Origin: Geminocystis sp. GBBB08 | GTDB lineage: Bacteria; Cyanobacteriota; Cyanobacteriia; Cyanobacteriales; Cyanobacteriaceae | DNA: 38,184 nt | Direction of reading: 5' to 3' | NCBI RefSeq assembly: GCF_016743215.1 | Contig: NZ_VRZC01000018.1 | Location: 1-38,184, forward strand | Shown: positions 20,920 through 34,713 of the stretch, piece after piece | Layout: each line of letters opens with the position of its first letter | How positions within the stretch are numbered: the first letter of the stretch is position 1 | The notes under the pieces: model-generated | The model's input: the letters and a program-made list of their open reading frames with translations, nothing else | Database searches by the model: none | What the model was told of the DNA's origin: nothing | Made by a program: the position numbers and the translations under genes

Positions 20920-20934
20920 GTGGGCATTGCCCAC
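20920..20934. repeat. Perfect 15-bp palindrome upstream of the Amt-kinase gene
   Basis: GTGGGCATTGCCCAC is a perfect inverted repeat (7-bp arms around one T), ending 24 bases before the ATG at 20959. It resembles a common dispersed cyanobacterial element (GTGGGCAATGCCCACCCTAC type). In the mRNA leader it would form a stable hairpin near the start codon. No NtcA-type GTA-N8-TAC site was found here. Confidence 0.7.
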
Positions 20935-20958: not shown

Positions 20959-23742
20959 ATGACTGACTTACAATGGATTTTAATTTGTGCAATTTTAGTA
21001 TTTATCATGCAACCCGGATTTATGTGTTTAGAATCGGGGTTAACTAGAGCAAAAAATAACATTAATGTTGCTATCAAAAATTTAGCAGATTTTGGTATCT
21101 CAGTGGCTCTATTTTGGATGGTGGGTTATGGTATTATGTTTGGATTAAGTTGGGGAGGATGGTTAGGTACAAATAGTTTTTTCTTTGATGCTGGTAATGA
21201 TTTAGAGTCAGGAGCATTTTTCTTTTTTGAAGCGATGTTTTGCGGTACTTCTACCACTATCGTATCAGGTGCAGTGGCAGAAAGAGTTAAATTCAGTGCT
21301 TATATTATCACTTCTATACTGATTTCTGGTTTAATATATCCTGTTTTCGGTCATTGGGCATGGAATGGCATGAATAACCATCAAAGTGATTTTACAGGAT
21401 GGTTAGGTAGTATTGGTTTTATCGATTTTGCTGGGTGTACTGTAGTTCATTCGATCGGTGCTTGGGTATCATTTGCCCTTTTATTAATTATAGGTCCTCG
21501 TTACGGTCGTTTTTCTATCGAAAAAATTAATGGCTCAAATTTGCCTTTGTCGGTATTAGGAGTCATGCTGTTATGGCTTGCTTGGTTTGGTTTTAACGGT
21601 GGTAGTACTTTAGTTTTTGATAATCAAGTGCCACGAATTTTAGTTAATACTCTCATGGCTGGAGTTGGTGGTATGATTAGCGGTTGTTTTTTCGGTTGGC
21701 AAAAGTATCAGATTCCTGAAGTTGAGTTTTTGATAAATGGCACTATTGTGGGATTGGTTTCCATTACTGCTTCCTGTAATAGTGTTTCTGCGAGTGAAGC
21801 CTTTATTATTGGGGTGATTGGCGCTTATTTAATGTTGTTTATTAAGGCAAAATTAGAACGATACAAAATCGATGACGCAGTGGATGCAGTCGCAGTACAT
21901 GGTGGTGGTGGCACATGGGGTATTTTGGCAGTAGCCTTATTTGGCAAACCTGAAATATTAGGCACTGGTTTAAGTCAGGGTAGTCAGTTATTAGTGCAAT
22001 TATTAGGAATTTTAGTCTGTTTTCTCTGGGGTTTTGGGGTAGCTTGGTTATTGCTTAATCTTATTAATCGTTTCTTCCCTTTACGAGTATCCTTAGAAGA
22101 AGAAGATATAGGTTTAAATGTATCTGAACATAGAGCAAAAACTGCTGTCTATGATTTACTTACTGTAATGGATGAACAAGTTAAAAATCAAGATCTTAGT
22201 TTGCGTGTACCAGTTGAACCTTTTACAGAAATAGGACATATCGCAACTCGTTATAATCAAGTTATTGAATCTCTGGAAAAGTCAACTTCTCAACTTCAAG
22301 CGGGTAATTTAGAATTGGCAATTGCTAAGGAAAAAGCTGAGATTGCTAATCAAACTAAAAGTGTTTTTTTGGCGAATATGAGTCACGAATTGCGCACCCC
22401 CATGAATGCTATTCTTGGTTTTTCTCAAATTATGATGCGATCGCCTAATTTACCTCCTGATCACATAGAAAATACAACCATTATTAACCGTAGCGGTAAC
22501 TATCTTTTAAACTTGATAAACAATATTCTTGATTTATCAAAGATTGAAGCCGGAAAAATGAGCTTAAATGAGAAAAATGTCGATTTTTATGTTTTATTAG
22601 ACGAAGTTGAAGATTTATTACATTTAAAAGCGGAGGAGAAGAATTTACAATTAATCTTTGAAAGAAATGAAGATGTACCTCATTATATTTGTATCGATGA
22701 AACAAAATTGCGTCAAGTATTAATTAATTTAATCAACAATGGTATCAAATTCACCGAAGAAGGAGGGGTAAATGTCTTTATTTCTTTATCCCCTAAACCC
22801 TCTAAAGAAGAAGGAAAAATTTATATTCGTTTTGCTGTAGAAGACACAGGTGCTGGAATAGCGGAGAAAGATTTAGACAAAGTTTTTGAAGCCTTTACTC
22901 AAACAGAAGTAGGGAGAAATAGTCAAGAAGGCACTGGTTTAGGATTGCCCATTAGTCGTAAATTTGTGCAATTGATGGGAGGTGATATTAGTATTAAAAG
23001 TCAATTGGGTAAAGGTAGTATTTTTAGTTTTGATATTTATGCTAAGGTGGTTAGTGCTAGTGATGTGGAAATTGAACAACGTACTAATTCTCGTCATGTT
23101 ATCGCCTTAAAACCCGGACAACCTTGTTATCGTATTCTTGTAGTTGATGATCGCCCAATTAATCGTTTATTAGTAATCAAACTATTACAACCATTAGGCT
23201 TTGAATTAAAAGAAGCGGCTAACGGTAAAGAGGCTATCGAAATTTGGGAAGAATGGAATCCTAACTTAATTTGGATGGATATGCGAATGCCGGTAATGGA
23301 TGGTTATGAAGCGACACAATATATAAAAGGTACGATTAAAGGTAACGCTACTGCTATTATTGCCTTAACTGCCAGTGTTTTAGAAGAAGAAAAAGCGGTT
23401 ATTTTATCCGCAGGATGTGATGATTTTATCAGAAAACCTTTTCGAGAATCCGTTATCTTTGAAGCAATGGCTAAACACTTGGGAGTAGAATATATTTTTT
23501 ATGAACAAGAAAATCAAAATATAATCACCACAAATAATAAACCTTTAACTGTAGAAGATTTGCAAATAATGCCAAGTTCATGGATAAATGAATTATATCA
23601 AGCCTCAGTTGATCTGGATGATGATCTAATTTTAGAATTAATTGCACAAATTCCTCAAGAATATAATATTTTAATAGACAAATTAAACTACTTAGTTGAT
23701 AATTTTGAACTAAAGAAAATCAGAAAACTAATAGAAAATTAA
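20959..23742 (+). CDS. Ammonium transporter (Amt) - hybrid histidine kinase fusion
   Basis: A 927-residue fusion. Residues 1-395 are a complete Amt/MEP/Rh channel with about 11 membrane helices. Counterparts of the E. coli AmtB pore residues are present: Phe90 (gate), Asp156, twin His164 (CTVVHSIG) and His314 ([10 protein letters not shown]), and Trp209/Phe212/Ser216 (AWFGFNGGS). The cytosolic Amt tail ([11 protein letters not shown]) leads to a HAMP-like/coiled linker (about 396-465). Then come HisKA with His476 (SHELRTPMN), HATPase with N box around Asn594, G1 DTGAGI and G2 GTGLGLPIS, a receiver with Asp774 ([10 protein letters not shown]), and a short helical tail. It likely senses ammonium at or through the channel and starts a phosphorelay. 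Amt-kinase fusions are known elsewhere (for example in anammox bacteria). A diguanylate cyclase follows 27 bases later. Confidence 0.95.
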
Positions 23743-23769
23743 TGAGGAATTAGGAATGACAAATGACAA

Positions 23770-25254
23770 ATGACAAATCACCCCCTCACCAATGACGAAT
23801 CACCCTATCAACTATTCACTATTCAAAATATGAATGACATAGACTTTAACTCAGAAGAAAACTTAATAGAAAGTATCTTAATAGTTGATGATCAACCGGC
23901 TAATTTGAGAGTATTATCAAAAATGTTGCAGGGGAAAAATTATAAAGTAAAAAAAGCATCTGATGGAGAAAGTGCGATTATTGCCGCTCAATCTAACCCT
24001 CCTGATTTGATTTTATTAGATATTTTAATGCCTAACATGAACGGTTATCAAGTCTGTGAAAATTTAAAAGCTGATAAGAAAACTAAAGATATTCCTGTTA
24101 TTTTTATTAGTGCCTTAAGTGATGTTTTCGATAAAATAAAAGCCTTTAATGTTGGCGGTATTGATTATATAACAAAACCTTTTCAAGAAGAAGAAGTTTT
24201 AGCAAGAATTTCCACTCAATTAACCATTCAAACTCAACGCAAATTATTAGAAAAAGAAAGAGTTTTATTAGAAAAAGAGCAAGAAACCTTAAGAAAAGAA
24301 ATCCGTCAAAGAAAAGAAGCTGAAGCAATTTTATATCAATCACGAGCCTTAATTTCAAGTATCTTAAATGCTTCTCTTGATGGTATCGCTGCTTTAGAAG
24401 CAGTAAGAGATACAAATACTGGAAACATAGTAGATTTTCGTTGTATTGTAGTTAATCCTGTCACCGCTCAAATTTTTAATAGTCAGCCTGAAGATTTAAC
24501 AGGTAAATTAGTCTTTAAAAAATTTATTAATAAAATTAAACCCGAGTTATTTCCTGCTTTTATTAAAGTCGTAGAAACAGGCAAAGCCTTAGAAGAAGAT
24601 ATAAAATATATTTACAAAAATGAGCAAAAATGGTTTCATTTTATCGCTGTAAAATTAGGGGATGGTTTTTCTGTTACTGTTAGAGATATTACTGTGAGAA
24701 AAAAGCTAGAATTAAAGTTAAGTAAATTGGCAACTATTGATGGATTAACAGGAGTTTATAATCGTCATTGTTTTGATAATACTCTTATTCAAGAATGGCA
24801 ACGTTGTGGTAGAGAAAATAAACCTTTATCTTTAATTTTATGTGATGTGGACTATTTTAAACCTTATAATGATATTTATGGACATCAACAGGGAGATTCT
24901 TGTTTAATAAAAGTGGCACAAACCATGGACAATATAGTTAAAAGATCATCAGATTTTTTAGCCCGTTATGGTGGAGAGGAATTTGCTATTATTTTACCTA
25001 ATACTTCCTTAGAAGGTGCGGTAAATATTGCTGAAAAAATGAGACAAGAAATACTTAATTTAAAAATACCTCATGAAGGCTCAAAAATTTGCCAATATGT
25101 CACTTTAAGTTTAGGTGTTGCCTCTATTATTCCTTCCTCTAAATCTTCTTTGGCAATATTGATAAAATCAGCCGATGATGGATTATATAAAGCAAAAGAT
25201 AACGGCAGAAATCAAGTAATATTTAACTATCATGAATTAGTAGTTAATAGTTAA
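23770..25254 (+). CDS. Response-regulator diguanylate cyclase (REC-PAS-GGDEF)
   Basis: A 494-residue cytosolic protein. The receiver (about 33-155) has acidic pocket residues in ILIVDDQP and phospho-acceptor Asp84 (LLDILMPNMNG), with Lys136 in TKPF. A coiled coil (155-190) leads to a PAS-like domain (about 190-310). The GGDEF domain (about 318-485) has GGEEF at 401-405, so it should make c-di-GMP from two GTP; RSSD at 392-395, five residues before it, is the product-inhibition I-site. The gene is 27 bases after the Amt-kinase fusion and is its natural phosphotransfer partner. The start is uncertain. Codons 1-20 arise from repeat-like DNA (ATGACAA units), and ATG 23830 (MNDIDFNSEENL) may be the true start. 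Confidence 0.93.
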   Translation: MTNHPLTNDESPYQLFTIQNMNDIDFNSEENLIESILIVDDQPANLRVLSKMLQGKNYKVKKASDGESAIIAAQSNPPDLILLDILMPNMNGYQVCENLKADKKTKDIPVIFISALSDVFDKIKAFNVGGIDYITKPFQEEEVLARISTQLTIQTQRKLLEKERVLLEKEQETLRKEIRQRKEAEAILYQSRALISSILNASLDGIAALEAVRDTNTGNIVDFRCIVVNPVTAQIFNSQPEDLTGKLVFKKFINKIKPELFPAFIKVVETGKALEEDIKYIYKNEQKWFHFIAVKLGDGFSVTVRDITVRKKLELKLSKLATIDGLTGVYNRHCFDNTLIQEWQRCGRENKPLSLILCDVDYFKPYNDIYGHQQGDSCLIKVAQTMDNIVKRSSDFLARYGGEEFAIILPNTSLEGAVNIAEKMRQEILNLKIPHEGSKICQYVTLSLGVASIIPSSKSSLAILIKSADDGLYKAKDNGRNQVIFNYHELVVNS

Positions 25255-29370: not shown

Positions 29371-31899
29371 TTAGAGATGATTTTTTGATAACCATTTATT
29401 TAATAAATTCTCTACTTGTTTTAAAGAAAAAGGTTTAGTTAAATAATCACTCATCCCTACGGCTAAACACTTTTCCCTATCTCCTTCCATAGCAAAAGCT
29501 GTTAAACCAATGATGGGCAAATTTTGAGTATCTTTATTTAATCTCAATTTTTTGGTGGTATCATAACCGTCTAAAATTGGCATTTGACAATCCATAAAAA
29601 TCAAATTATAATTATTCTTTGCTACTTTTTCAAGACATTCTTGACCATTATTTACTACATCAAAAGAATAGCCTAATCGCTTCATTACTTGCATAATAAT
29701 TTTTTGATTTACTTTATCATCTTCTACGATTAAAATATGAGCATATTCTTTGATAACTTTATTTTTCCCGACAGTCTCAACGGTACTAATTTTATGGTTA
29801 ATAATAATATTTTCTTCAACGTTTAAGGGTATGGTAAACCAAAATGTTGAGCCTTCATTGACTATACTTTCGACACCTATTTCTCCTTCCATTAAATTTA
29901 CTAATTGTTTACAAATAGCTAAACCTAAACCAGTGCCTCCATATTCACGAGTTGTGGAGGAGTCAACTTGAGAAAAAGATTGAAATAGTCGATTATAATT
30001 AAATTTTGCAATCCCAATTCCAGTATCTTTTACAGCAAAATAAACTGTTACTATGCTATTATCTTTAGGTGTTTTGTCTAATTTTTTTGCTATTAATTTA
30101 ATTGAACCTTTTTGAGTAAATTTTAAAGCATTACTAACTAAATTATTAAATATTTGCCTAATTCTAAAACTATCACCTTGATATACTTTGTCTAAATCAG
30201 TATCAATTTCATAAGTTAATTCAAGGTTTTTTTGTTGTGCTTGATACCTAAAAATTTGACAAGTTTCTTTGATAAACTCATTAAGATTAAATATTTCAAA
30301 ATCAAGTTCAATTTGCCCCGCTTCTAATTTTGATAAATCTAAAATTTGATTAATTAATCCTAATAAAATCTCGCCACTATTTTTAATAGTTTGCACAAAA
30401 TCTAAAGATTCTTCATCGAGTTTATGATCAGAAAGTAAATCTGCCATGCCTAATATTCCATTCATAGGAGTGCGAATTTCATGGCTCATATTAGCTAAAA
30501 ATGCACTTTTTATTTTCGTTGCTTCTTCTGCTTTTTCTTTCGCTATTTTTAATTCTTTTACTAATAATGCTTGTTTAATTCCAATGGCAATTTGTAAGCA
30601 TAATTCTTCTAAAAAATCTATTTCATGTTCTTCCCAAATACGAGGTTTTTCGCAATGATGAGCAATAAATAAACCCCATAATAATTTATCTTTTTTATTA
30701 ATAATAATTGGTAAGGCTAAAATTCCTTTTACATTTAAACTTTTTAGTAGTTTTAAATGACATTTATCAATATTGGCTTTATCAATATCACTAATATTTT
30801 GTTTACGACAATTAAGAGAATAATCGATTTTACCATCATTTTGAAAATAAGTATCTTTTACTACTAAATTAAGAATCGAATTATATTTATTATTATAAGA
30901 TTCGGCTACAACTTGACCACTATCATCTTGATTAAACTCAAAAAAAAGTACCCGATCACATCTTAAAAATTTTCTAATTTCTTTGACAGCAGTATTAAGA
31001 ATTGCCTCAATTTCTATCGATTCACGAATTTTTAAAGAAATAGTAGCCAATAATTGTTTATAAGATTGATTTCTAACGAATTGATACTCTAAAGAAGTAT
31101 TATTGAGCATGAGAGTATCAACTTTTGTCCGTAAAAATTCTACTGTAATATTATCTTTTTTCCAATAGTCTTTAGCTCCTTTTTTGATAATTTCTACTAC
31201 CATTTCTTCATTTCCTTGCTCCGTCATGACAACGACAGGAATTTTTGTTAAATCTAAAATATATTTTAATTCATCTAAAATTTCTAGTCCATTAGCATCA
31301 GAAAGAGAATAGTCTAACAAGATTAAATTAGGAGTTATTTCTTTACAAAGTTGTAATAATTCTTCTCCAGTTTCACACTCAAAAATTTCGTGATTTTTAT
31401 AATTATCTCTTAATAAATAACGAATATAAGTATGATGATTTTGTTGAAACTTTTCAGCAATAACAATTTTATTAGGAGTGAGAGAAACTGATAGATTTTG
31501 TATATAATCATCAAAAATTTTATGAAGAGAATTATGTAATTTTTCTGCTGTTATTTTTGATTTAATTAAATAATCAGTTGCACGATCTTGCATCAAGTTA
31601 AGAGCTATTTTTTCATCACCGTGTCCTGTTAAAATAATGATGGGAATTTTGTGATTTGGTTTTAAATAATGAAGAGAATCTACAATATCAAAGCCATCCA
31701 TATCAGGTAAGAAAAAATCCAATAAAATTAAATGAATATCATTTGTTTCACATATTTGTAACGCTTCTTCTCCCGTTTCAGCTTCTAAAATATTATATTT
31801 ATATTTTCGATCTTTTTTTAAATAACGACGATAAACTTCTCTATCTATAATAAAATCTTCCACAATTAAAATAGTAAAAATTAAGTCGCTATTTGACAT
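29371..31899 (-). CDS. Hybrid histidine kinase REC-REC-GAF(CBCR-like)-HisKA-HATPase-REC
   Basis: An 842-residue soluble multidomain kinase. REC1 (about 8-130) has Glu14-Asp15 and phospho-acceptor Asp61. REC2 (about 143-265) keeps Asp196 but its acidic pair reads Ala148-Glu149, so it may be impaired. The GAF domain (about 282-447) has Cys380-His381 (IDKCHLKLL) and [16 protein letters not shown], the pattern of cyanobacteriochrome domains, so a bilin is probably bound. The DXCF-type second-Cys position reads DTYF. HisKA has His473 ([10 protein letters not shown]), HATPase has N box Asn590, G1 DTGIGI and G2 GTGLGL, and the final receiver has Asp770 ([12 protein letters not shown]). It is third in a transcription unit after the phytochrome and the Rcp1-like regulator (51-base gap), so it likely joins the same light response. 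Confidence 0.9.
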
Positions 31900-31950
31900 A
31901 GAAATTTATGTTAATAATCAATATAAAATGATTTTTTGATTGGATCAATG

Positions 31951-32418
31951 TTAGTGAGAAGGTAAAATAGAAACATAAAACCAATATTCTAATAAAGATT
32001 GAATCATTATCTTCATTTTATTTAAGTCCATTGGCTTAATAATATAAGTATTTGCTCCTTTTTGATAACAAGTTTGAATGTCATCAGGATTAGAAGAAGT
32101 TGTAAAAATAATTACAGGAATAGTTTTCAAAAAATCATTTTTTTTAATTTCTGTTAACACTTCTTTACCATCTGTACCGGGTAAATTAAGATCTAATAAA
32201 ATCAAAGATGGACGAGAAAAAATAGAAAAATTTTGATATTTTCCCCGATGATAAAGATAATCTAAGGCATCATCACCATCATAACAACGATAAACGGGAT
32301 TATGAAAAGATAATTTTTGTAAAAAACGGCTGAAAACTGCAAAATCAGTATCACTATCTTCTACAACCAAAAGATGATAGCGTGAGTCTTGAATGGATTC
32401 CCTTAAATTATCTGTCAT
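31951..32418 (-). CDS. rcp1: Rcp1-like single-domain response regulator
   Basis: A 155-residue receiver-only protein of the Rcp1 family, the cognate partners of cyanobacterial phytochromes. I start at ATG 32418; two TTG codons just upstream could extend it by two residues and are closer to an AGGA. The acidic pocket is VVEDSDTD, the phospho-acceptor is Asp76 (LLDLNLPGTDG), the switch region is FTTSSNP, and the Lys is in IIKPMD. The Rcp1-type insertion DYLYHRGKYQ and the extended C-terminal helix are present. It lies 87 bases downstream of the phytochrome gene, the standard arrangement. It has no output domain, so signal must pass on by protein contact or phosphotransfer, possibly to the receivers of the next gene. 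Confidence 0.9.
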   Translation of the reverse strand: MTDNLRESIQDSRYHLLVVEDSDTDFAVFSRFLQKLSFHNPVYRCYDGDDALDYLYHRGKYQNFSIFSRPSLILLDLNLPGTDGKEVLTEIKKNDFLKTIPVIIFTTSSNPDDIQTCYQKGANTYIIKPMDLNKMKIMIQSLLEYWFYVSILPSH

Positions 32419-32511
32419 CAACAAACTTTTCCTTTAAAATAATCGATCTACTGAATTTGAATAAATAGTATAGAAAAATACTTTTCCCTAAATTTATCAT
32501 TAATACATCAC

Positions 32512-34713
32512 CTATGGGAGAGTAAAATAAAAAGTTGTGCCTTCACCATAGACTGATTCTAACCAAATGTTACCTCCGTGACGCTCAATAATCCGTTTAA
32601 CAATGGTTAAACCAACACCGTTTCCCCCACCGTATTGATTTTGTCCATGTAATCTTTTAAAAATACGAAAAATAGTATTAAAATGTTTTTCTTGAATACC
32701 CATACCGTTATCTTTGATATAAAAAATAATTTTTGATTTTGCTATTTCTATTTCTTTTTGTTCAGTTAAATAACCAATTTCAATTACTTTTTGCTGTTGA
32801 TGATTATATTTTAATCCGTTAGTAATTAAGTTAGTTAATAATTCTTCTATTAAAATAGGATCTCCTTGAGTATTTGGCAAGGTTTTTGAAATAATAATTT
32901 CCCAATTTTTTTCCTGATAAGATGCTTTTAACATCTTGGTTATATTATTGATTAGATTTGTTAAATTAATTGGTTTAATTGTTAAGCCTGTACGCCCAAT
33001 ACGAGAATATTCTAATAAAGCTTCTATTAATCCCTCCATCCGTTTAGTCAAAGACAATAAGGTGTTTAATTTATCTTTACCATCTTGATCTAAAATATTT
33101 TCATAATCTTCTAATAAAAAAGTAGAATAATTATAAATACCTCGTAATGGTTCTTTTAAATCATGGGATGCGATATAAGTAAAAGCATCTAATTCTTGAT
33201 TTATAGTTTGTAACTCTAAATTTAATGAAGCTAATTCATCGGCTTTTTGTAAAATAATTCCTACTACTGCATTTTTAAACTCTATGGCTTCTTGAATTTC
33301 GTATTTTTGCCAAGGTAATGACTGAAATTTTACTTTTTCTTGCCATTCCTGAAAAGAATTTCGAGGAGATAAAGTGATACCATCAGCTTCAATTTTAATT
33401 GAGTTATAAGGATTTCCGGCCCATTTTACTGTTTGAATAACTTCGCCACGAAACCAGATAATATAATAACGAGTAACTCTGGTTAAAGTTAATAATAAAA
33501 TACCACTAGCAACGTCTTTAAATCCTTGAGCTTTTTCATAAATTTTGGATAAATTATTAGTATAATAAATATCATTTTTAGTCTCGATTTCCAAAAAATC
33601 TATTAAATGATAAATCTCTTTTTCTGAAGGAGTTTTACCAAATAAAAAAAGTTCATCATCAGCACAAATTGCAACTCCATTACCATTAACTAAATTTTGA
33701 ATTTGCTCACCATTATTAATTAAACTATCAATTAAATTAGTGGATTTAGATAAAGAGTTAATTAAATTAGTTTGAATATTTTTGAGACTGATTTTATCAT
33801 TAAGATATTCATTTTCTTCTTTAGCAGGTAATTCAATTGACATTATCTTTCCTAAAAATTCACAAACAGTACGAATATCATAAGGTACATATTTAGGGCT
33901 GTAATTATGACAAGCAATTAATCCCCATAAATGATTATTATTAATGATAGAAATTGTCATAGAACTTTTGACTCCCATATTTTTTAAATATTCTAAATGA
34001 CATGGAGAAACACCTCGTAAAACTGAATAACTTAAATCAAAAATTTCGTTAGTTTCTGGATGATTTAGAAGCAAAACAGGCTGATAATAAACATCGGGAA
34101 TTACTCGAAGAAAATTGAGACTAAAAAGATACCTCGCTTTAAGAGGAATATCAGTTTCTGGGTAATGTAAATTAAAAAATGAGTCTAAATTTTCTCTTTT
34201 TGCTTCGGCGATAACATGACCATATTTATTATCTTCAAAACGATAAATCATCACTCGATCAAATTCAGTTAATTTTCTAATTTCTGCAACAATAATTGTG
34301 GATAATTCCATTAAATTTTTAGTTTTTTGCAGCTTTTTTATAATGTTATTAGTAACTTGATAAAATTGAAAAAAATTAGAACTATAGGATTGATTTATTA
34401 TTTCTAATTCTAAAAAAATAAAATTATTAAAACTATGAATAATTCCTTGAAAAAATTGTTTTTTAATCTTTAAATCTAAAGGATTAATATAATTAAAGTC
34501 TTTCTTTAAACAGTTAGTAATAGCTTCAACTTGTTTCTCATTTAAAAGTAAAGAAATGTGCTTATTTATTAAATCATTAGGCTGATAACCTAACCATTTT
34601 TCTGTATTTTGACTAACTTGACAAATAGTTAATTCTGGATCATTTAAAATAATTAAAACACCATGGGGTTGAATAGTACCGAGTAATTGAATTTCTTGAT
34701 GATCATAGTTCAT
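32512..34713 (-). CDS. cph1: Cyanobacterial phytochrome, Cph1-type (PAS-GAF-PHY-histidine kinase)
   Basis: A 733-residue red/far-red photoreceptor kinase, close to the 748 of Synechocystis Cph1. The N-terminal lasso region has IQPHGVL (14-20), followed by PAS (about 20-110). GAF (about 130-295) has Tyr157 (MIYRF), PETDIP with Asp188, and Cys238 in SPCHLEYLKNMGV, the Cys that binds phycocyanobilin in Cph1; His239 and His269 (ACHNYSPK) match the chromophore-pocket His residues. The PHY tongue is recognised by WAGNP and PRNSF. HisKA has its H box in ASHDLKEPLRGI and HATPase has NGLKYN, DNGMGI and GNGVGLTIVKR. It should autophosphorylate and pass phosphate to the Rcp1-like regulator. It is the first gene of a three-gene minus-strand unit and is divergent from rpsU (165 bases). 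Confidence 0.95.
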   Translation of the reverse strand: MNYDHQEIQLLGTIQPHGVLIILNDPELTICQVSQNTEKWLGYQPNDLINKHISLLLNEKQVEAITNCLKKDFNYINPLDLKIKKQFFQGIIHSFNNFIFLELEIINQSYSSNFFQFYQVTNNIIKKLQKTKNLMELSTIIVAEIRKLTEFDRVMIYRFEDNKYGHVIAEAKRENLDSFFNLHYPETDIPLKARYLFSLNFLRVIPDVYYQPVLLLNHPETNEIFDLSYSVLRGVSPCHLEYLKNMGVKSSMTISIINNNHLWGLIACHNYSPKYVPYDIRTVCEFLGKIMSIELPAKEENEYLNDKISLKNIQTNLINSLSKSTNLIDSLINNGEQIQNLVNGNGVAICADDELFLFGKTPSEKEIYHLIDFLEIETKNDIYYTNNLSKIYEKAQGFKDVASGILLLTLTRVTRYYIIWFRGEVIQTVKWAGNPYNSIKIEADGITLSPRNSFQEWQEKVKFQSLPWQKYEIQEAIEFKNAVVGIILQKADELASLNLELQTINQELDAFTYIASHDLKEPLRGIYNYSTFLLEDYENILDQDGKDKLNTLLSLTKRMEGLIEALLEYSRIGRTGLTIKPINLTNLINNITKMLKASYQEKNWEIIISKTLPNTQGDPILIEELLTNLITNGLKYNHQQQKVIEIGYLTEQKEIEIAKSKIIFYIKDNGMGIQEKHFNTIFRIFKRLHGQNQYGGGNGVGLTIVKRIIERHGGNIWLESVYGEGTTFYFTLP

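Follow-up and report, generated by a model that had tools for sequence, protein, structure and literature searches.

A predicted ammonium-sensing two-component system with a cyclic di-GMP output in the cyanobacterium Geminocystis sp. GBBB08

The genome of Geminocystis sp. GBBB08 (Cyanobacteriaceae) contains two neighboring genes that encode an ammonium transporter (Amt) domain fused to a hybrid histidine kinase (HK) and a response-regulator diguanylate cyclase. Both lie within a stretch of 38,184 nucleotides (nt) that was analyzed as a whole and is referred to here as the window (contig NZ_VRZC01000018.1 of assembly GCF_016743215.1, positions 1 to 38,184). Together, these genes probably form an ammonium-sensing two-component system with cyclic di-GMP (c-di-GMP) as output, derived from a kinase-cyclase pair that already existed. 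At the level of sequence, the domains, the site residues, the conserved adjacency of the two genes and the matching nearest relatives of the kinase and the cyclase are established.

The gene pair and its proposed phosphoryl route

The two open reading frames (ORFs) both start with ATG and encode proteins of 927 and 494 amino acids (aa). Their features are as follows, with the evidence for each in brackets:

20959..23742, plus strand: predicted ammonium receptor hybrid kinase, 927 aa, Amt-HisKA-HATPase-REC-CT (ORF, Pfam; cyclase downstream in 11/11 intact family copies)
20974..22140, plus strand: Amt domain, residues 6-394, with the second site Q18/E25/N41/D44 (and F45, T100, S103) (Pfam, PDB alignments, residue counts)
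Within 20974..22140, plus strand: Amt pore residues F94, W135, H164, F212, S216, H314 (PDB alignments, residue counts)
22141..22293, plus strand: Amt C-terminal tail and half-HAMP-like segment, residues 395-445 (match ends, hhalign)
22357..22554, plus strand: HisKA, phosphoacceptor H476 (Pfam, motif)
22696..23034, plus strand: HATPase_c (Pfam, motifs)
23134..23466, plus strand: kinase REC, phosphoacceptor D774 (Pfam, motif)
23479..23739, plus strand: C-terminal helical domain (CT), residues 841-927 (alignment, model)
23743..23769, plus strand: 27-nt gap between kinase and cyclase (ORF coordinates)
23770..25254, plus strand: REC-PAS-GGDEF response-regulator diguanylate cyclase, 494 aa (ORF, Pfam, model)
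23875..24210, plus strand: cyclase REC, phosphoacceptor D84 (Pfam, motif)
24382..24687, plus strand: PAS-fold domain of the cyclase, model residues 205-306 (model; Pfam PAS_4 below cut-off)
24730..25215, plus strand: GGDEF domain with the GGEEF active site at 24970-24984 and the RSSD inhibitory-site motif at 24943-24954 (Pfam, motif; nearest solved relatives WspR)

The order Amt-HisKA-HATPase-REC, followed 27 bases later by REC-PAS-GGDEF, had been read in a first-pass annotation and is borne out by the ORFs, by Pfam and by a predicted model of the cyclase. In the kinase, Pfam places Ammonium_transp at residues 6-394 (E 3e-112), HisKA at 467-532, HATPase_c at 580-692 and Response_reg at 726-836; the sensor-type Amt thus carries its cytoplasmic transducer, HisKA-HATPase-REC, on a single chain. 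In the cyclase, Response_reg covers residues 36-147 and GGDEF 321-482. The PAS_4 match between them (222-311) falls under the curated cut-off (20.8 vs 23.1 bits), and the model shows the succession of strands and helices typical of a PAS fold at residues 205-306 (mean pLDDT 83; secondary structure read by eye). The phosphoacceptors H476 and D774 of the kinase and D84 of the cyclase REC, located from motif starts, are all present. The same annotation had noted an intact GGEEF site and an RxxD motif, and both are found (GGEEF 401-405, RSSD 392-395) along with the catalytic residues; with D84, the cyclase has the receiver phosphoacceptor Asp, GG(D/E)EF site and RxxD that characterize the WspR/PleD kind. 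Across 29 cyclase relatives, G401, G402 and E403 are invariant, D84 and R392 are conserved in at least 90% and D395 in less than 90%. The linker after the Amt domain, previously described as HAMP-like, resembles the second half of a HAMP domain only (hhalign probability 57%, pairwise E 1e-4, 32 columns; 0.3% for a control stretch), and a Pfam scan of the linker gave no HAMP match.

In the proposed mechanism, external ammonium would enter the vestibule of the Amt domain, presumably a trimer, and bind a second intramembrane site formed by Q18, E25, N41 and D44. The change would be relayed via the Amt tail and the half-HAMP helix, reach the DHp helices and alter autophosphorylation of H476, from which the phosphoryl group would move to D84 of the neighboring REC-PAS-GGDEF protein. 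Once phosphorylated, the cyclase would synthesize c-di-GMP up to the point of feedback by the RSSD site, with D774 of the kinase REC most likely serving as a competing acceptor or brake. An effect of ammonium on the kinase has been established for Ks-Amt5, whose phospho-His is modulated by ammonium according to the excerpted text of PMC5764959; we infer such an effect for the window kinase, and the sign of the response is likewise presumed. The host genome encodes one weakly matched PilZ domain and two ComFB domains, neither of which points to an output.

We favor a direct route in which H476 passes its phosphoryl group straight to D84 and the kinase REC acts as a brake, because no histidine phosphotransfer (HPt) domain was found in the kinase or the cyclase (Pfam, E 0.001; an unlinked HPt was not searched for). 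A multistep relay, running from H476 to D774, then to an HPt encoded elsewhere or a His such as H840, and on to D84, is rather improbable but deserves weight. The kinase is a hybrid with an intact REC, and in the CdgK-CdgS pair of Anabaena PCC 7120 the signal passes His-Asp-His-Asp through an internal Hpt. Two points tell against direct transfer: the CdgK-CdgS signal requires REC2 and Hpt (excerpted text of PMC9927289, also for the His-Asp-His-Asp route) and no Hpt was seen in the window kinase, and H840, at the end of the kinase REC just before the CT bundle, is conserved in 36/38 sequences. Because of H840, our confidence in direct transfer is slightly lowered. The CT is helical in the predicted model, but no conserved His lies inside its bundle in the 38 sequences, and H840 falls outside the bundle, where the model is unstructured and of low confidence. 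Matches of the CT to HPt folds are weak (Foldseek E 2.5 and worse; best HPt Z 4.9, below the Z 6.9 for a Csm complex chain). With no His in the bundle and no clear fold matches, the CT is not claimed as an HPt. Of the two-gene relay that had been suggested for the locus, control of a response-regulator cyclase by an Amt-type sensor thus stays plausible, while a complete His-Asp-His-Asp chain is not supported by the two proteins on their own, as neither a Pfam HPt domain nor a conserved His within the CT bundle was found.

The Amt domain and its outputs in cyanobacteria

The closest solved relative of the Amt domain is 8qj3/8qpf (393 bits), ahead of Ks-Amt5 (6eu6, 290 bits) and AmtB (1xqe, 131 bits); 8qj3 has a GGDEF domain at 461-630. 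The pore residues F94, W135, H164, F212, S216 and H314 are all kept. The residues highlighted earlier by comparison with AmtB (H164, H314, F90, F212, D156 and S216) are indeed present, but the numbers are those of the window protein, and F94 rather than F90 aligns with AmtB F107 (F90 aligns with F103). F107 and F215 of AmtB are presumably its gate residues. The earlier conclusion that this domain should conduct or bind ammonium is correct about the intact residues, but these occur equally in sensor Amts and plain Amts and therefore cannot tell sensing from transport. Moreover, Ks-Amt5 keeps the pore residues and binds ammonium without efficient translocation, as far as the excerpted text of PMC5764959 describes.

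It is the second ammonium site, and not the pore residues, that sets the window Amt apart from plain Amts. In Ks-Amt5, a trimer, two ammonium ions are found at an intramembrane site of Q24, E31, N47, D50, T51, T109 and T112 (PMC5764959, excerpted text). The window protein has Q18, E25, N41, D44, F45, T100 and S103 at these places, with all seven letters as in 8qj3. The first four residues, QEND, are conserved in 145/146 rows of the sensor clade (144 distinct), the remaining row reading QENN, and in 11/11 intact copies from Cyanobacteriaceae. These rows comprise 137 of the 140 sampled sensor genes described below and 9 of 80 named loci (two of them duplicates of sampled sequences); L053, L191 and L192, with <380 aa of Amt, and the sensor copy L218 are left out. 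The 17 plain Amts read NENV (9), TYSL/TYSA (6), QEND (1) and QEHD (1), the last two in distant lineages of the phylum. Judged by its sequence, the window Amt reads as a receptor; on the other side of the scale, the conservation of QEND in the sensor clade stems partly from shared descent and the set of plain Amts is small (17).

It is unlikely that the domain is instead a working transporter with a signaling tail, a transceptor whose kinase reports flux and not bound ammonium. In its favor, every pore residue is intact, and Ks-Amt5 is blocked by three bulky residues, of which the window Amt has the first (F21) but L24 and L28 in place of Y and F. Set against this are the QEND site that marks sensor-type Amts, the inefficient translocation by Ks-Amt5 (PMC5764959, excerpted text) and three more Amts of the host genome outside the sensor clade (best 1e-73 to the window Amt; site read for one).

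The Amt-domain query matched 34 of 386 genomes from the phylum at 1e-85 (30 better than 1e-150, the other four 1e-87 to 1e-89) and 113 of 388 genomes from the order at 1e-120. All but three of the order matches extend to query residue 433-434, beyond the Amt fold and into the tail, and matches to plain Amts in the search of the own family end at residue 393-394. The sample used here consists of 139 loci with 140 sensor genes; six order matches lie outside it (G535:C139, G528:C446, G519:C37, G532:C4, G655:C556 and G525:C397; open frames of 396-552 aa). Since sensor genes were picked with a profile of Amt plus tail, tail counts within the sample prove nothing, and the match ends are the evidence. 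The half-HAMP tail also occurs in sensor Amts without a kinase, indicating that it belongs to the receptor.

By profile, the 140 genes fall into PAS-HK (27), no output domain found (25), PAS-SpoIIE (21), HK-REC-CT (19), PAS-class III cyclase (18), HK-REC-class III cyclase (11) and smaller or incomplete classes (19); for the 13 sensor proteins that were scanned, Pfam confirmed this architecture. When twelve output labels are mapped onto a tree of 165 Amt domains (17 of them plain), they require 25 changes vs 115.7 when shuffled, part of the 25 stemming from five rows with incomplete output. Outputs cluster on the Amt tree yet have changed many times. Whether in cyanobacteria a QEND Amt, a former transporter now serving as a sensor, is an interchangeable input module for several outputs is an even call. 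If it is, kinases, the c-di-GMP kinase-cyclase pair, class III cyclases (presumably making cyclic AMP) and SpoIIE-type phosphatases would be fed by the same Amt, and external ammonium would itself be a first messenger, separate from PII and NtcA.

Several individual copies are worth recording. Examples of sensor Amts fused to class III cyclase domains, in combination with either HK-REC or PAS, and to SpoIIE phosphatase domains are L100, L092, L108, L080, L084 and L125. The host genome has a second sensor-type Amt (G000:C166:31225-32505; L023, L046:5726-7447) of 573 aa, 61% identical and with the QEND site, which has the tail and a sub-threshold HAMP match and in which no output domain was found; 27 rows of such output-less sensor Amts form one clade. 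In six loci (L088, L089, L129, L131, L150 and L191), an Amt-PAS-HK gene is followed after 172-343 nt by a plain Amt gene, which places sensor beside transporter, and a named copy of this arrangement is from Planktothrix (L252). Phormidesmis encodes an Amt protein of 1660 aa that also contains two kinase-REC sets and one CT domain (L295:7980-14383), and a convergent REC-GGDEF gene, with a partial GGDEF match, ends 21 nt away. Outside cyanobacteria, the best 80 loci from named genomes include copies in Scalindua, Phototrophicales, Desulfopila and Desulfogranum. In Candidatus Scalindua, a single-REC gene follows the gene for an Amt-HisKA_2 kinase after 12 nt (L294:2477-5023) or 146 nt (L306:1167-3774) and is a candidate for the response regulator of anammox Amt kinases. 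Desulfopila has Amt-PAS-GGDEF-EAL on a single chain (L300:7986-11744), and in Desulfogranum the same order is split across two ORFs, with the GGDEF-EAL gene 86 nt downstream (L305:1982-5766).

Conserved adjacency and probable origin of the pair

Among the 15 genomes of Cyanobacteriaceae, 11 have an intact Amt kinase, one has a broken copy and three have none (one of these only 63% complete). REC-PAS-GGDEF lies directly downstream in 11/11 intact copies, with gaps of -14 to 297 nt, and the order is the same in the 10/10 copies other than that of the window; in both genomes of one genus, kinase and cyclase overlap by 14 nt. The conserved adjacency that the first-pass annotation had named as a check is therefore found. 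Other neighbors vary: in the ten other loci, CcdA, which is the next gene in the window, is nearby in five (in two of these on the upstream side), and an orthologue of the protein kinase gene upstream in the window is nearby in one. In the broken module (L053; G003:C20:194-2524), the Amt is split, the kinase is reduced to a short remnant and what is left of the cyclase lacks its REC; the same genome retains an output-less sensor Amt.

A REC-first partner is found beyond the family as well. All 19 Amt-HK-REC-CT genes of the sample adjoin a REC-first gene, which is REC-PAS-GGDEF in 11 and REC-HATPase in 8, five of the latter with a HisKA profile. The RECs of 11 REC-first kinases, including those 8, are of the cyclase-REC type, with a median of 148 bits to the REC of the window cyclase. 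The corresponding medians are 166 bits for cyclases and 71-78 for other classes, with one single-REC protein (L042) at 138; the cyclase RECs were partly picked by similarity to the window cyclase and the REC-HATPase RECs were not.

The origin of the pair was approached from the side of the cyclase, a relative of which is present at 1e-70 in 64 of 148 genomes from the order. Twenty loci were taken from the upper part of the match list, none with an Amt kinase. In 16/20, a HisKA-HATPase-REC-CT kinase with another sensor is encoded immediately upstream, at distances of up to 459 nt; two loci have one intervening gene and two have no such kinase. The CT domain is thus common to the window kinase and the non-Amt kinases preceding related cyclases. 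Ten of these non-Amt kinases were scanned, and seven have HAMP above the cut-off with Cache-type matches (dCache above the cut-off in four), two have MASE1 and one has a weak PAS match only. In the kinase-core tree (56 rows), the Amt kinases of Cyanobacteriaceae group with L338, L339 and L343 (SH-aLRT support 95), all three of which have HAMP and no Amt. These three loci are also nearest to the window family in the cyclase tree (31 rows; support 93 with L338, 94 with all three). As both trees agree on the nearest relatives, the pair seems to predate its ammonium receptor, which would have taken the place of an earlier sensor: judging from these sequences, kinase and cyclase would have stayed together while a Cache/HAMP-type sensor was exchanged for an Amt receptor in an ancestor of Cyanobacteriaceae. 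A single clade of all Amt-CT kinases was rejected (AU test, p 0.007), so one Amt-kinase fusion followed by a change of partner is not favored, with the reserve that branches are long.

Several observations weigh against this account of the pair and its origin. A GGDEF gene is a same-strand neighbor (<400 nt) of just 11 of the 140 sensor-Amt genes and of the broken copy (five rows having <900 nt of sequence downstream), and in this sample the cyclase partner is confined to Cyanobacteriaceae. L172, L175 and L103 adjoin the window family in the Amt tree (98), unlike in the kinase tree, and L103 has a REC-HATPase partner. The trees come from fast methods with no bootstrapping, the kinase-core tree has several long branches, and the supports of 93-94 in the cyclase tree are below the 95 mark. 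Proximity alone is also weak evidence, as the host genome has 22 GGDEF domains; nevertheless, that the two genes are mere neighbors, with the kinase controlling another regulator and the cyclase answering another kinase, is very improbable given the unbroken adjacency, including the 14-nt overlaps, amid varying neighbors, the shared nearest relatives in both trees and the same arrangement with other sensors in 16/20 loci.

Searches for regulatory elements gave little. No terminator-like site was found in the 27-nt gap, promoter- and terminator-like sites were no more frequent than chance, and Rfam reported nothing at gathering scores. The window contains 8 copies of the NtcA box GTA-N8-TAC vs 6.4 expected, none of them between the upstream gene and the kinase gene, and this element was rejected. 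The palindrome GTGGGCATTGCCCAC at window 20920-20934 ends 24 nt before the kinase start codon, but occurs at 33 places in the genome (vs 0 for a reversed control) and was dropped as a leader device, being a genome-wide repeat. Elsewhere in the window, the minus strand at 29371-34713 encodes, in a row, a PAS-GAF-PHY-HisKA-HATPase phytochrome kinase, a REC protein and a second kinase, this one with three RECs and a GAF.

Significance and known systems

The locus would represent a compact pathway from ammonium to c-di-GMP in a phototroph, and related kinase-cyclase pairs with another sensor provide a built-in control. Most kinase, cyclase and phosphatase outputs work as dimers. If the Amt heads are trimers like Ks-Amt5 (excerpted text of PMC5764959), they have repeatedly been placed on kinase, cyclase and phosphatase outputs, and natural Amt fusions would make this trimer-to-dimer wiring open to comparison.

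Amt kinases (Ks-Amt5), an Amt-cyclase protein (8qj3) and a kinase-cyclase operon (CdgK-CdgS) are each known separately. In literature searches, no paper was recognized on an Amt kinase beside a cyclase, nor any report of Amt fused to cyclase or SpoIIE domains in cyanobacteria, although other Amt work may mention some such fusions; neither an origin of an Amt kinase-cyclase pair by sensor replacement nor the variety of outputs on one receptor in cyanobacteria was found there. The annotation's view that an adjacent cyclase partner was undescribed therefore stands, within these searches, for the combination but not for its parts, given the CdgK-CdgS operon (PMC9927289, excerpted text) and the Amt-GGDEF chain of 8qj3. 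Earlier observations of Amt fused to other domains are mentioned in PMC5764959 (excerpted text), and in a census review of c-di-GMP stimuli the words ammonium, ammonia and Amt are absent from the main text (PMC8846402).

The structures 8qj3, 8qj4 and 8qpf, which we take to be Sd-Amt1 of Shewanella denitrificans and to belong to a 2024 paper in Science Advances, share the seven second-site letters with the window Amt and combine Amt and GGDEF in one signaling protein. The cyclase is on the same chain there, whereas the window has a kinase and a separate response regulator instead. Ks-Amt5 (Kuenenia stuttgartiensis, PDB 6eu6) is likewise an Amt fused to a HisKA kinase, with the same pore residues, and its second-site Q, E, N and D and T109 are kept in the window Amt. 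It differs in that T51 and T112 correspond to F45 and S103 in the window, and in the excerpted text of PMC5764959 it has no REC and no HAMP, and its response regulator is unidentified.

Among cyclases of the WspR/PleD type, which are the best PDB matches, the combination of REC and GGDEF with intact GGEEF and RxxD is the same, and the PAS-fold domain between REC and GGDEF is the difference. A precedent for transfer from a kinase to a cyclase in a cyanobacterium is CdgK-CdgS, an operon in which a hybrid kinase lies directly upstream of a REC-GGDEF cyclase whose Asp is required (PMC9927289, excerpted text). The window pair has the same gene order, with the kinase directly upstream on the same strand at 27 nt. 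CdgK has CHASE, PAS and GAF inputs, two RECs and an Hpt (same excerpt), whereas the window kinase has an Amt sensor, one REC and no Hpt that could be found.

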